Positions 28,210 through 38,578 of a stretch of DNA of 64,000 bases are shown one piece after another; position 1 is the stretch's first letter, and every line of letters starts with the position of its first letter. The notes below the pieces were generated by a model, which was not told the origin of the DNA, searched no databases, and worked only from the letters and a program-made list of their open reading frames with translations. Source of the stretch: Synechococcus sp. LA31 (GTDB lineage Bacteria; Cyanobacteriota; Cyanobacteriia; PCC-6307; Cyanobiaceae); NCBI RefSeq assembly GCF_018502385.1, contig NZ_CP075523.1, positions 1,054,001 through 1,118,000 of the forward strand, read 5' to 3'. Position numbers and translations under genes: made by a program.

Positions 28210-30063
28210 GTGCGAGCCTTGTCGAGCAGCCCTGGCACGGTTGTTGTGTGCGGCCTGGGAGCCTTGGGGCAAGCCTGCCTAGAACGGCTGATGCCGTTCG
28301 GCGTGCCCCTCGTAGGTGTCGACTGCCGCCCGCCTCGCTGGCGCCGACAAGAGCTTGAGCTGAAAATCGGATCACGGGTGATCCAAGGAGACATGCGTCA
28401 GAGCCTGGTGCTGGAGCGCGCCGGCGTGCGCCACTGCCGGGCGGTTCTGTTATTGAGCTCAGACAGCCAGGTGAATCTGGAAGCAGCCCTACAGGTGCGG
28501 TTGTTGAACCCCCACGCGGAAATTGTTGTGCGCTCCAGTAGTGGTCAGATGGCCCTGGGTCGCCTCCTGGAACAACGCCTACCCAAGGTTGCCGTGGTGG
28601 ATCCAATTGTGCTCACGGCCGGAGCTGTAGCCAACGCCATTCATCCCACAGAGGGACTGATTCCGCTCAATAGCAACGCCGGGGGCAACAACATTCGCCT
28701 TGTGAATTCCTCAGAGTGTTCGGCACAGAGGGGCCACCGACCAGTGCGACGACAGCCTTCCGAGCTCCACCCCCTCTGGCTCACGGTGGTGCAGCGCCAC
28801 GCACAGGTGAAGCGGCGCCAACACACAACTCAACTGCGCGCGCAACGAGCTGCACGCTGGATCAAGCAAACGTGGCGAGGATTGCCCCGTAGCCAGATGT
28901 CTTGGTTGCTACCGATGAGCATCGGACTGATCACAGCCGGGGTTGTTCTATTTTCCGATCATGCCGACAACTGGCAGCTTGGCTTAATGATCACGTTTGG
29001 ACTACTAAAAGGAGAATATGTCGATCCCGTAATGCTACTCAGTGGCTCTGAAATCTGGCGACTGCTACTAGGGATGAGCTACTCACTCATCGGCACATTA
29101 ATCACATCTGCTTTCGTGGCTCTCATTCTAGAGAAACTGCTCTCTAACCGTCTAGGCCTGAGGCGCCGCGTCTACCTGCGCACGGGCAGCAGACAGGCCC
29201 TCATCGTCGATGGTCAGCAAGTTGTTGAGCCCATTCGAGACCTGCTGGCCAGTGAACAGATCGGCGTGCAGACCGCCACAATTCAAGAAGGTATGTCTGA
29301 ACTGGAGACCCAGCTGGAGCGGCTTAGGCATACCGAACTTGTGGGCATCGGACTGTTGAGCAACAACCTACTCAGCAATGTTCATGCAGCCATGGCCCTG
29401 CAAAGCAGCCATCGACCATGCCGGATCGCTGTGCTTGCGCATGAAATGGAATCCAGCGATCAACTCGGCGCCCTGCTGGGTGGAATCACTGTTCTATCCG
29501 GGGTGGACCTTGCTGCGGATGCACTCGTCGCCACTGCATTTGGAGAAAGGGTGGAGCGCGTGCTGCAGATCAAGGGCATGAATCACATGGTGGTGCGCTA
29601 TCAGCTCGAGGAGGGGGACACGCTCTGCGGCCTCAATATTTCAAGGCTTGAGAATGGCTACCAATTGAATGTGCTCACCCACAGTCGCACTGATCAGAGC
29701 AGCCCAGGGGTCCTACCACCGCTCGATTGCATGCTGATGGCAGGCGACGAGATCACAGTTCTAGCCGATCTCGAAAGCTTGCGACTCGTGGAAATCGGCG
29801 CCCTCCACCCCGCGCAATGGCGCGTGGATTTTCGTGTGATTCATCATTTTGATAACCACTTCATGGTGCAACAGTGTCTTGCCAAATTTCTAGGTTCTGT
29901 TCCCGGCCGGATGCACGATCTGGTGGATGGTCACTGGCACCACACTCCGCCACTCGACAATGACCTTGGAGAGATTCTCTGCGAGCAATTGCAGCGTATG
30001 GGAGTGGAGGCTCATCTGCGCCAGGTTCAGGCGGAGGCTGCATCGATGAGCTGTCATGCCTGA
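28210..30063 (+). CDS. Two-RCK membrane protein (CASTOR/TrkA-N-like), possible ion channel
   Basis: The protein is 617 aa with two Rossmann-like NAD-binding domains flanking a short membrane part. The first has VVVCGLGALGQACLERL (residues 11-27). The membrane part is two helices at residues ~235-300 with no GYGD-type K+ filter. The second half has LIVDGQQVVEPIRDLLAS and MAGDEITVLADL (a TrkA-C type end). This architecture resembles CASTOR/POLLUX and related cyanobacterial ion-channel proteins. Ion specificity is unknown. The start is a GTG at 28210. Its stop overlaps the next gene by 8 nt. Confidence 0.75.
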   Translation: MRALSSSPGTVVVCGLGALGQACLERLMPFGVPLVGVDCRPPRWRRQELELKIGSRVIQGDMRQSLVLERAGVRHCRAVLLLSSDSQVNLEAALQVRLLNPHAEIVVRSSSGQMALGRLLEQRLPKVAVVDPIVLTAGAVANAIHPTEGLIPLNSNAGGNNIRLVNSSECSAQRGHRPVRRQPSELHPLWLTVVQRHAQVKRRQHTTQLRAQRAARWIKQTWRGLPRSQMSWLLPMSIGLITAGVVLFSDHADNWQLGLMITFGLLKGEYVDPVMLLSGSEIWRLLLGMSYSLIGTLITSAFVALILEKLLSNRLGLRRRVYLRTGSRQALIVDGQQVVEPIRDLLASEQIGVQTATIQEGMSELETQLERLRHTELVGIGLLSNNLLSNVHAAMALQSSHRPCRIAVLAHEMESSDQLGALLGGITVLSGVDLAADALVATAFGERVERVLQIKGMNHMVVRYQLEEGDTLCGLNISRLENGYQLNVLTHSRTDQSSPGVLPPLDCMLMAGDEITVLADLESLRLVEIGALHPAQWRVDFRVIHHFDNHFMVQQCLAKFLGSVPGRMHDLVDGHWHHTPPLDNDLGEILCEQLQRMGVEAHLRQVQAEAASMSCHA

Positions 30064-33431: not shown

Positions 33432-34160
33432 TCAATGCACCAACACGGGTAAGGCTGAAGCCGGCACCTTGCGCACCTGATCCAATTCAACCTGTACGGC
33501 GGGATCCGCTTTGAACGCACGCCATTGGGGCGACTGAATTAGCTGGTTGGCCGCGGCAACACCGAGGCGCTGACCGGCCTCCACATCCGAGGGGTAATGC
33601 ATCCCGCAGAGCACACGGCTGTTGCCGCCATGGCGGCCGAGCTCAAGCAACCTGGAGCGCCGCTCCGGCAACAGATCAGCCAAGAGCTCTGAGGCAGCGC
33701 GGTACCAAGTGGAATGCCCCGACGGGAACGACGCGCTCGCCTCCAAGGGCAAGCAGGGAATGATCTGGGGATGACTCACAAATGGACGAGGCCGATTAAC
33801 GCGATCCTTGATTTGATCCTTGATGCCATCCACCGGCTTGAGAAAGGCTTTGAGTGCGGCATTGAGCCGAGGTGTGGTGCGCACCATGTCGACACCGAGT
33901 GCACGGCTGAAGGCGGTAGGGTTGCGCTCCAGCAGCGTCCAGCTGCTACTCACAATCTCAGGAGTACGCACCTGTTGCAGCCAGAGCAGAATCGCCAGAT
34001 CCTGACCTGCTTCGGCACTCCTGGCAGCAGGTGGCGTGCCCACGACCCGCTCCAAGGGAGCAGGATTAAGGGACACGCCGGCGGCAGGGGATGGATCAGC
34101 GCGAACAGCGACCGGGGTGAACGCCAAGACGGAGAGAGCCAGAGCTTGAATGGCAGCCAT
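33432..34160 (-). CDS. PAP2-type class A acid phosphatase
   Basis: The protein is 242 aa from the ATG at 34160 and starts with a signal peptide (AIQALALSVLAFTPVAVRA). The phosphatase signatures are all visible: KDRVNRPRP, SFPSGHS and SRVLCGMHYPSDVEAG, giving the catalytic triad His/Arg/Asp. It is probably periplasmic. Its ATG overlaps the stop of the upstream histidine phosphatase (TGATG), so the two formed an operon. That upstream gene is now broken by an IS, which may reduce or alter expression of this one. Confidence 0.88.
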   Translation of the reverse strand: MAAIQALALSVLAFTPVAVRADPSPAAGVSLNPAPLERVVGTPPAARSAEAGQDLAILLWLQQVRTPEIVSSSWTLLERNPTAFSRALGVDMVRTTPRLNAALKAFLKPVDGIKDQIKDRVNRPRPFVSHPQIIPCLPLEASASFPSGHSTWYRAASELLADLLPERRSRLLELGRHGGNSRVLCGMHYPSDVEAGQRLGVAAANQLIQSPQWRAFKADPAVQVELDQVRKVPASALPVLVH

Positions 34161-34480
34161 CAGTTCGGTGCAACAACAGTGAATTGGGGGGCCGGCTGGC
34201 TGCAGGGCTGAGAGCCATCCAGGAGGGCCGTTTGGCTGAAGCGCGTCACTTGCGGCAGGGCTGAACCTGGGCAGTAGCTGAGTCGGTAGAGGGTGTCGAA
34301 GTCGTTGTCGTCGATCGGTGGCATCGCCGGCCAGCCCAAACCGGCAGCCAGTTGGGGCAAGTGGCGATGCTCCCAAAACACCACCAGCAAGCCACCGCTG
34401 TAGGTGGGGTTGCTGAGCATGCTCCGGCCGGACTCAACGGAATCGACGACAGACGATCGGTCGATGCGGATATTCACGCC

Positions 34481-34486
34481 GCTAGC
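34481..34486. repeat. Target-site duplication, left copy
   Basis: GCTAGC directly before the left end of the IS. The same six bases follow the right end. Confidence 0.85.
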
Positions 34487-35530
34487 TGTTGTGTCTCACC
34501 ACGTTGATCAGCAGAGCAGCTCGTTGAGCCGCTGCTGAGGTGATCGGCCGCCGAGTGCTGTGTGCTTCCTGAGACGGTTATAGATCGACAGGTAGCGAGG
34601 CAGCCACTGATTGCGTTCTTCTGAGTTCTGGAACGGCATCCCGTAGGCCCATTCCCGGCACAGGGTCTGGATGAACCGTTCGGCTTTGCCGTTGGTCCTC
34701 GGCGTGTAGGGCCTGGTGCGGATGTGCCTGAGGCCCAGGACCTTGCACGCCTTGGCAAAGCTGCGTGAGACGTAGGCGGGACCGTTGTCAGACATGACCT
34801 GCCGGCACTCGACGCCCTGACTGTTGAACCAAGCCACAGCTCGGCTCATAAAGCCAATGGCCGTGGCCTGCTGCTCGTCCGCGAGCACCTCGACATAAGC
34901 AAGCCGTGTGGCGTCATCAATGGCGACGTGGACGCGGTCGTAGCCAACGCCCGTGGAGCGGCCCTGCTGGCGGTTGCCAGTGATGCGGTGACCGACTTTG
35001 CGAAAGCGGGCGAGCTTTTTGACGTCGATATGGATCAGCTCTCCGGGATGCTCCCGCTCGTAGCGCTGGACTGGAGGTTTGGGCTCGAGATTCCGCAACC
35101 GCCCCAGACCAAGGCGGTTGAGCACCCTGGCCACGGTGGAGAAGGGTGCGACCAGAAGCCTGGCGATGTGGCGGAGGTGGAGGCGTTGGTGACGGAGATC
35201 CACGGCCTGCTGCAGTTGCCGCGGATCGAGCGTCCGCCGCTGGGTGCGGCGAACACTCCGTCGATCAGCCAGAGAAGCAGCACCACCTGAGCGGTAGCGG
35301 GCCAGCCACTTGTAGGCGCAGCGGAGACTGATGCCTGCTTCTGCAGCCAGTTCAGCGAGGGGACGACGGTCTTGGAGGTGTTGATTGACGAGCCTGAGAC
35401 GGCTCTTCTGTGTCAGTCGGGCATTGGGATGGCTATGCATGGGGCGTGAGGTCTGGGTTGCTGGGTCGCACCTCAACCCGTAGCGGCCTCACACCTTCTT
35501 GTCAGCTGACCAACCTGCTGAGACTGAACA
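34487..35530 (-). mobile_element. IS481-family insertion sequence
   Basis: The element is 1044 bp with imperfect terminal inverted repeats: the left end TGTTGTGTCTCACCACGTTG and the right end, read inwards, TGTTCAGTCTCAGCAGGTTG. These match at 21 of 26 positions over 34487-34512 and 35505-35530. It carries one transposase gene and is bounded by GCTAGC duplications. One intact transposase in full-length ends suggests that it may still be active. Confidence 0.9.
34508..35440 (-). CDS. IS481-family transposase
   Basis: The protein is 310 aa from the ATG at 35440. The N-terminus is a helix-turn-helix (ELAAEAGISLRCAYKWLARYR), and the C-terminal integrase catalytic core has the DDE triad: Asp in LIHIDVKKL, Asp in VMSDNGPAYVS and Glu in NGKAERFIQTL. 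It appears intact. The stop codon lies inside the left inverted repeat. The frame is open to 35476, so an earlier start is possible. Confidence 0.93.
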   Translation of the reverse strand: MHSHPNARLTQKSRLRLVNQHLQDRRPLAELAAEAGISLRCAYKWLARYRSGGAASLADRRSVRRTQRRTLDPRQLQQAVDLRHQRLHLRHIARLLVAPFSTVARVLNRLGLGRLRNLEPKPPVQRYEREHPGELIHIDVKKLARFRKVGHRITGNRQQGRSTGVGYDRVHVAIDDATRLAYVEVLADEQQATAIGFMSRAVAWFNSQGVECRQVMSDNGPAYVSRSFAKACKVLGLRHIRTRPYTPRTNGKAERFIQTLCREWAYGMPFQNSEERNQWLPRYLSIYNRLRKHTALGGRSPQQRLNELLC

Positions 35531-35536
35531 GCTAGC
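35531..35536. repeat. Target-site duplication, right copy
   Basis: GCTAGC, a copy of the 6 bp on the left of the element. Confidence 0.85.
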
Positions 35537-35962
35537 GACAGCGAGTGGCACAGCCGTTTGGTAGCTGCGGGCGTTTTTACTGGTCTCAGGATCGAGAAAG
35601 TAGGTGACGATATGAGAAGGGGTGCCGTAACAGGCAGGGATCACACTGGCCAGTGCAATGGCCCGTTGAAAGCCAATGGCAGAGAGGTTGTAGTTGTTGG
35701 ATGCGCTGCCTTTGTGCCCGTGGCGCATCAAGATCACTTGGGCCGGTTGTGCATCAGCCGGCTGGATTGACACGGCCAACCCACAAACACCCACCAAAGC
35801 AACAGCAGCGCGAAGAACGGAAATGGGTTGAGCCACGGCTTAACGCAGTGTGCCTGGACGTGCAGCGCGTGCGAGAACGCTGGCAACAATCGTCCGTGCA
35901 ATGCAACACATCCAAACCCGCCTGCACCGGTAAAGAATGGCTGAGCAGGCCGGAGCATCCCC

Positions 35963-36274
35963 GTGCCGCAGCTGGGTTGGACAGCCAAGGTGCATCAGGC
36001 CAGCATCCTGCGGCTGCGGCCGTTGATTGCCAGCAGCCTTGATCTGGAGCTACAGAAGCGACAAAGCCGAGATGGTTATCTGTTGCTGAAGGAAACCGGC
36101 TTGCCTTGCCATTGCCAGGATGAGACCGTGGTGGTGGCGATGCACTGGAAGGATTCGCGCTCCAGCCTTTGCCACATCAGTGTCTCGAGCGAGGAGGCCG
36201 ACCATCCTGAATCCACACGCTGCTGGGAGGTATCGGTGCGCTTACGCCGCCTGCTGAGGCCAACCGATCCATAA
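35963..36274 (+). CDS. Hypothetical protein upstream of ppk1
   Basis: The protein is 103 aa from a GTG (MPQLGWTAKVHQASILRL). It is mostly basic and soluble, with a CHCQDETVVVAMHW segment. I recognise no family. It is on the same strand as ppk1, and the Pho box before ppk1 overlaps its stop codon. It may be a short conserved gene of this lineage. Confidence 0.55.
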   Translation: MPQLGWTAKVHQASILRLRPLIASSLDLELQKRQSRDGYLLLKETGLPCHCQDETVVVAMHWKDSRSSLCHISVSSEEADHPESTRCWEVSVRLRRLLRPTDP

Positions 36275-36325: not shown

Positions 36326-38578
36326 ATGGCCACAGCCGCCCTGCCCCACGAGCTCTATCTGAATCGGGAACTGAGCTGGATCCGATTCAACGAGCGGGTG
36401 TTAGCGCAGGCGCTCGACCCTCGCACCCCGTTGCTGGAGCAGGCCAAGTTCAGCGCGATCTTCAGCAACAACCTTGATGAATTCTTCATGGTGAGGGTGG
36501 CATCACTGCAGTCGCAGTTGCATGCCGGTGTGCAAACCCTCAGTGAAGACGGCTGCTCACCCAGAGAGCAGCTCGAAGCGATCCGCCGCCAGCTGGAACC
36601 ACTACTCAAACAGCAGCAAGATCACTACCGTGGCAGCCTCAAAACCAACCTGGCTGAGCAGGGCATCCTGCTGCTCGATTACGAGCAACTCTCACGCAAA
36701 CAGAAAGACTGGGCCAATAGCTATTTCCAGACATCGGTGTTTCCGGTGCTCACGCCGTTAGCGGTGGATCCGGCTCATCCCTTCCCCTTTATTAGCAATC
36801 TAAGCCTCAACGTCGCGGTGACCATCCGCGACCCGAAAACCCAGCAGCAGCAATTTGCGCGAATCAAGATTCCCCAGAAAAACCTGCCCCGCTTTGTCAG
36901 CCTGCCGCCCGAACTGCATGGGGGCCGCAGCCCCCAACCGCTGTACATGGGGTTACCACTGGAGCAGCTCGTGGCCTTCAACCTGCAGCGTCTGTTTCCG
37001 GGGATGCTGATCGAAGGCCATCACTTTTTCCGGGTGACCCGCGATGCCGACCTGGAATTGCGGGAACTGGAAGCCGACGATCTGATGGAGGCCCTGGAGC
37101 AAGGTCTGCGCAAACGGCGCATGGGTGGGGAAGTGGTGCGCCTCGAGGTCGCTGATGAGATGCCGCTGTCTCTGGTGGATCAGCTGATGCACGGCATGGA
37201 GGTGGACGACTTTGACGTGTACCGCATCAACGGCCCCCTAGGACTCGATGATCTGATGAGTCTGCTGGCCATCGCGGCTCCCCAACTCAAAGACAAACCA
37301 TTCCGCGGCAAGACTCCATCGCAACTGCGCACCACTCAAAGCAGCCAGCTGGAAGATGGATCCCTTCAATACCAAGATTTCGAGAGCATCTTCCGGGTGA
37401 TCCGCCGCGGTGATCGGCTACTGCATCATCCCTTTGATCTGTTCTCCACATCGGTGGAAGAGTTCATCAATCAGGCAGCCGACGATCCCCATGTGTTGGC
37501 CATCAAGATGACCCTGTATCGGGTATCAAAGGATTCACCGATCATCGCCGCGCTGATCCGCGCTGCAGAAAATGGAAAACAGGTGATGACCCTGGTGGAG
37601 CTGAAGGCCCGCTTCGATGAAGACAACAACATTCAATGGGCGCGCCAACTGGAGCGCTCCGGCGTACACGTGGTGTATGGTGTGCTGGGCCTAAAGACCC
37701 ACACGAAGATCACACTGGTGGTGCGGCGTGAACAGGAGAAGTTGCAAGGCTATTGCCATATTGGCACCGGCAACTACAACTCAAAAACATCGAGTCTCTA
37801 CACCGATCTTGGCATCCTCAGCTGCAACGAGGAACTGGTAAATGATCTCGTAGACCTATTCAACTACCTCACCGGATTCTCCAAACAGCAGGAGTTTCAA
37901 CGGCTGCTCGTGGCGCCAGTGACCCTCAGACGCCGCATGCAGGAATTGATCAAGCGCGAGATCGAGTACGCCCGCGCCGGACAGCCGGCGGCGATCAAGG
38001 CGAAGATGAATGCCTTGGTAGATCCCAGCATCGTTGCGCTGCTGTATGAGGCCTCACAAGCGGGCGTGAGCATTGATCTAGTGGTGCGCGGGATGTGCAG
38101 TCTGCGGCCGGGCATCGAGGGCATCAGTGACAACATCCGGGTTTACAGCGTGATCGGCCGGTTGCTTGAGCATTCACGGCTGTTCTGGTTCGCCAACGGC
38201 GGAGACGCTGAGCTGTTTTTGGGCAGTGCCGACTGGATGCCCCGCAACCTGGATCGCCGGGTGGAAGCTGTGGTGCCCGTACTCGACCCACAGCTCTGTC
38301 TACAACTCGAATGGCTGATGCAGCTCTACCTTGATGATCAGCACGCCTGGCTGATGCACTCCGATGGCACCTATGTGGTGCGCAACCCAGAGGCTGAGGG
38401 CCCACTTGCGCAGCAGGAACTGATGGAACTCTGGTCGCTCAGAAGCGTTCAGGGCGTGGTTCGCTCCAGGTGGGACGCAGCCCCTGCCTCTGTTCCAGAC
38501 CCTTGGCCCGCTTCGCCAGGCGCTGAAGATCCAGCCACCACAGCCCATAGCGCCCCTGCCGTTGGATCAGCGGGCTAA
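36326..38578 (+). CDS. ppk1: Polyphosphate kinase 1
   Basis: This enzyme makes polyphosphate from ATP. It has 750 aa with the usual four-domain layout: an N-terminal helical region (NRELSWIRFNERVL), then a head domain, then two catalytic lobes. The autophosphorylated His is probably in YGVLGLKTHTKITLVV, followed by GYCHIGTGNYNSKTS. The family is normally ~700 aa; the last ~45 residues are an extension rich in Pro and Ala that overlaps the convergent glycosyltransferase gene by 140 nt. The protein looks intact. Confidence 0.95.
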   Translation: MATAALPHELYLNRELSWIRFNERVLAQALDPRTPLLEQAKFSAIFSNNLDEFFMVRVASLQSQLHAGVQTLSEDGCSPREQLEAIRRQLEPLLKQQQDHYRGSLKTNLAEQGILLLDYEQLSRKQKDWANSYFQTSVFPVLTPLAVDPAHPFPFISNLSLNVAVTIRDPKTQQQQFARIKIPQKNLPRFVSLPPELHGGRSPQPLYMGLPLEQLVAFNLQRLFPGMLIEGHHFFRVTRDADLELRELEADDLMEALEQGLRKRRMGGEVVRLEVADEMPLSLVDQLMHGMEVDDFDVYRINGPLGLDDLMSLLAIAAPQLKDKPFRGKTPSQLRTTQSSQLEDGSLQYQDFESIFRVIRRGDRLLHHPFDLFSTSVEEFINQAADDPHVLAIKMTLYRVSKDSPIIAALIRAAENGKQVMTLVELKARFDEDNNIQWARQLERSGVHVVYGVLGLKTHTKITLVVRREQEKLQGYCHIGTGNYNSKTSSLYTDLGILSCNEELVNDLVDLFNYLTGFSKQQEFQRLLVAPVTLRRRMQELIKREIEYARAGQPAAIKAKMNALVDPSIVALLYEASQAGVSIDLVVRGMCSLRPGIEGISDNIRVYSVIGRLLEHSRLFWFANGGDAELFLGSADWMPRNLDRRVEAVVPVLDPQLCLQLEWLMQLYLDDQHAWLMHSDGTYVVRNPEAEGPLAQQELMELWSLRSVQGVVRSRWDAAPASVPDPWPASPGAEDPATTAHSAPAVGSAG

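Follow-up and report, generated by a model that had tools for sequence, protein, structure and literature searches.

The window analysed here, a stretch of 64,000 nucleotides of the Synechococcus sp. LA31 chromosome, contains between positions 30056 and 38578 a cluster of phosphorus-related genes encoding a phytase-like protein, PhoX, a PAP2-type acid phosphatase, a histidine phosphatase and polyphosphate kinase. Within the histidine phosphatase gene lies an insertion sequence of the IS481 family (Table 1). The transposase gene, the phosphatase gene and the downstream PAP2 gene are all carried by the minus strand.

Table 1. Features of the interrupted locus of LA31, with positions in the window
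Feature	Position	Strand	Remarks
PAP2-type acid phosphatase	33432-34160	minus	242 aa; ATG overlaps phosphatase stop (TGATG)
3' part of interrupted histidine phosphatase gene	34160-34480	minus	second catalytic His, WEH motif
Target-site duplication GCTAGC, copy 1	34481-34486		
IS481-family insertion sequence	34487-35530	minus	1,044 bp; ends TGTTCAGTCTCA... / ...TGAGACACAACA; 3 identical genome copies
DDE transposase, IS481 family	34508-35476	minus	322 aa as listed, TTG start
Target-site duplication GCTAGC, copy 2	35531-35536		
5' part of interrupted histidine phosphatase gene	35531-35836	minus	codons 1-102, signal peptide-like start, RHG motif, R90
Conserved ORF (orf103), family unknown	35963-36274	plus	103 aa; divergent from phosphatase gene
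Polyphosphate kinase 1 (ppk)	36326-38578	plus	marker of conserved neighbourhood

The inserted element and its copies

The element has TGT...ACA termini, with 21 of 26 end positions matching. With the NCBIfam model transpos_IS481 (NF033577, cut-off 224), its transposase reaches 286.5 bits; it harbors the Pfam domains rve, rve_3 and LZ_Tnp_IS481 and includes in its translation an SDNG...GKAE stretch whose D and E are spaced by 35 residues. Three features of the IS481 family are thus present: an IS481-type transposase, TGT inverted ends and a 6-bp NCTAGN duplication. A preliminary description of this DNA, made from its letters only, had already given the length of the element, its imperfect inverted ends, the flanking GCTAGC and the assignment to this family, and all of these were re-found.

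The genome of LA31 (a single contig of 2,752,051 bp) carries three full copies of the element in total, 100% identical over 1,044 bp, in addition to two weaker matches below the cut-off. Each copy is flanked by an exact 6-bp duplication, GCTAGC in one case and GCTAGG in the two others. The third copy (115767-116810, locus L112, with GCTAGG duplications) has polA on one side and a long ORF with repeats on the other, the two being arranged tail to tail. The GCTAG[C/G] duplications fit the 6-bp NCTAGN target documented for IS481 (PMC3279416), and a duplication of this size also appears in the data available on the family (PMC10045372). With this element, the preference for CTAG targets described in Bordetella is shown to hold in picocyanobacteria too. 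The element shares with IS481 of Bordetella pertussis, and with the family as a whole, a DDE transposase, a size of about 1 kb, TGT...ACA ends, a 6-bp duplication and a CTAG-centred target, but it belongs to a cyanobacterial lineage and has only three full copies in its genome.

Among the relatives sampled, the nearest copies have a DNA identity of 76-80%. An element of another genus, about 72% identical, is flanked by a TCTAGA duplication; most of the related elements from other genera had no clean duplication in a simple search. Matches in plasmids were all distant and partial, and hence gave no evidence of a plasmid source. The element is fully formed and, judging from its identical copies, probably still active.

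The interrupted gene and its homologues

Removal of the element and of one GCTAGC leaves a single frame that is open across the junction (PLAVAS-GVNIRID), so that the gene can be rebuilt exactly, as had been proposed. The joined frame of 627 bp corresponds to 208 aa and a stop codon; the open frame of the preliminary description stands, while its length of 209 aa counted the stop codon. The CTAG-containing target covers codons A101-S102 and the element lies after codon 102, where it parts H39 and R90 from H140. Read onward, the 5' part continues for 13 codons into the element, up to a stop at 35489, while the 3' part contains an ORF with a GTG start that is open from 34477.

R38, H39, R90 and H140 are invariant in an alignment of 23 sequences. 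Pfam gave no match for either half or for the joined LA31 protein, and only weak His_Phos_1 matches for 10 of the 23 family members (best E 0.00039). Since a sequence profile search of the PDB with the phosphatase returned only insignificant matches, folds were compared: an intact relative, as modelled by AlphaFold (pLDDT 92), has a fold that matches those of SixA (1ujb, TM 0.67/0.74), PGAM5 and other histidine phosphatases. The motifs and this predicted fold support a secreted, SixA-like histidine phosphatase of branch 1, for which a catalytic role can be inferred. The name given previously is thus borne out by motifs and fold, but not by Pfam with the LA31 sequence itself. The family shares with SixA-like enzymes of branch 1 the RHG motif, the conserved Arg, the second catalytic His and the fold; it differs from them by its signal peptide-like start, the WEH around the second His, its picocyanobacterial distribution and its weak detection by Pfam. 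On inspection, the N-termini of both the histidine phosphatase and PAP2 resemble signal peptides.

Homologues were sought in a sample of 151 genomes of the family, and in 24 genomes of the same genus besides LA31. A scan of genome contigs with the single protein found no relative; a profile scan did. Of the 151 genomes, 28 have a match, counting LA31 and two remote ones (G009 and G101). Clear homologues are present in 9 of the 24 other same-genus genomes (51-67% identity, the nearest 63-67%), to which G009 adds one further, remote match (E 5e-4). None of the homologues has an insertion at the LA31 site, and the gene is whole in all nine genomes with a clear same-genus homologue, as expected by the preliminary description if the gene had been split in LA31. 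Two halves encoded as separate genes, which it had named as an observation against this view, were looked for and found in no relative examined. The search yielded no insert-free genome of the same species.

The phosphatase gene directly precedes the PAP2 gene and lies beside ppk in all six same-genus relatives checked; orf103 is found beside ppk in five of them. The stop of the phosphatase gene and the start of the PAP2 gene overlap, or nearly so, in relatives (ATGA, TGATG or similar), which makes translational coupling of the two genes plausible. The operon proposed in the preliminary description is thus supported by gene order and by the stop/start overlap in relatives. In G115 and G150, PhoX is encoded about 6.5 kb from PAP2 and is not adjacent to it. 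PAP2 of LA31 and PAP2 of G115 share 87% identity. G150 is the closer relative of G115 according to ppk, orf103 and a glycosyltransferase, yet it reaches only 69% in PAP2; these identities suggest that the PAP2 gene has likely recombined between lineages.

Age of the insertion and probable consequences for the two phosphatases

Neither half of the phosphatase gene contains a stop or a frameshift. The identity of the three copies and the exactness of their duplications point to recent activity of the element and, together with the open halves, provide good support for a recent insertion, in line with the young age proposed earlier from the lack of decay. Gene conversion between copies is a possible source of their identity, but it would not create the duplications. 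LA31 has four lineage-specific changes at otherwise invariant columns, where the other near relatives have 0 to 3. In the comparison with G115, each of the two halves gives a dN/dS of about 0.18, a rough value since dS exceeds 1; these figures agree with a gene that would have been under constraint until recently, and they do not date the insertion.

The open halves, together with the in-frame GTG of the 3' half directly past the duplication, would also suit an old insertion whose halves were kept since one or both make a useful product, such as a shortened secreted protein or the product of a 3' half restarted at GTG 34477. However, the three identical copies with exact duplications indicate recency, the two invariant catalytic histidines fall on different halves, and these halves occur as separate genes in no relative, which makes this scenario very improbable. 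Likewise, an assembly may place repeated 1-kb elements wrongly, but an artefact of this kind can practically be dismissed here: each copy has distinct flanks and a matching 6-bp duplication, which misassembly would not create, and LA31, an isolate from Narragansett Bay maintained in F/2 medium, was sequenced by PacBio and assembled into a single contig with mean reads of 3.5 kb, longer than the element (PMC8928756).

We therefore favor, with a probability of about 0.95, a recent IS481 insertion that has very probably inactivated the phosphatase and that probably lowered the expression of PAP2 or made it dependent on read-through. The element has recently transposed into the CTAG-containing target (A101-S102) of the chromosomal gene and duplicated six target bases, a step seen both in the sequence and by comparison. 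The truncated product retains R90 and the RHG motif with the first catalytic His, while the second one (WEH) is missing. Since the insertion separates the catalytic histidines, loss of histidine phosphatase function is likely.

An effect on PAP2 is also likely, and may go either way: coupling would lead to loss, co-orientation with the transposase to read-through. Given the overlap of start and stop, reduced expression of PAP2 is plausible, or its expression may now rely on read-through of the transposase transcript. That PAP2 may have lost its normal promoter, and that a strain free of the element might show a stronger phosphatase response, are conjectures of the preliminary description. Rather than silencing PAP2, the element might supply a promoter, outward or read-through, for its expression. 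IS481 promoters transcribe neighboring genes in Bordetella (PMC3053399, PMC11774165), and in LA31 the transposase and PAP2 genes point in the same direction. No strong terminator separates the two, and terminator-like sites were near chance level in the scan. However, the Bordetella promoters belong to a different element in another phylum and a consensus promoter was not found in the LA31 element; a scan for sigma-70-like promoters near it, a weak one as cyanobacterial promoters may differ, found none. We regard activation of PAP2 by the element as a tentative alternative to its silencing.

For specialists, this insertion is an unsurprising, textbook IS481 event in an ordinary chromosomal gene. 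It matters as a clean and recent natural gene knock-out in a named Synechococcus strain of estuarine origin. A comparable gene loss is that of pertactin in B. pertussis (prn::IS481), which also occurred at NCTAGN with a 6-bp repeat; it recurs in many isolates (PMC3279416), whereas LA31 shows a single insertion in one strain and no evidence of selection.

The second copy and vitamin B1

The second copy (genome positions 225029-226072, within G000:C1:224607-226472, locus L111) lies outside the window and interrupts the only PF08543 gene of LA31, which encodes the HMP-P kinase ThiD; once joined, the frame of this gene scores 306.8 bits with TIGR00097. ThiD is full-length and uninserted in 14 other same-genus genomes, four of which have one TGA inside the match. 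LA31 also carries ThiC and a ThiD2-ThiE fusion, and ThiD2 phosphorylates HMP monophosphate, not free HMP (PMC12345177). Hence, we predict that LA31 has probably kept vitamin B1 synthesis and lost the salvage of free HMP.

F/2 medium contains thiamin, so that the loss of ThiD could be tolerated in culture. A burst of the element during isolation or culture might have cost the strain functions that it can do without in rich medium, namely the secreted phosphatase together with PAP2, its partner, and the salvage of HMP through ThiD, but we consider such a burst rather unlikely. If it did occur, LA31 as sequenced may have phosphorus and vitamin B1 traits that are not those of its wild population. 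More generally, phenotypes of LA31 in experiments with phosphate or thiamin precursors may not represent its relatives.

Vitamin B1 auxotrophy of LA31 through the thiD insertion was considered and rejected, given the ThiD2-ThiE fusion. It is also countered by three complete genomes of the same genus (G009, G064 and G092) that have no ThiD over the family cut-off and still carry ThiC and ThiE-type genes. From these three genomes, ThiD seems to be dispensable in the genus.
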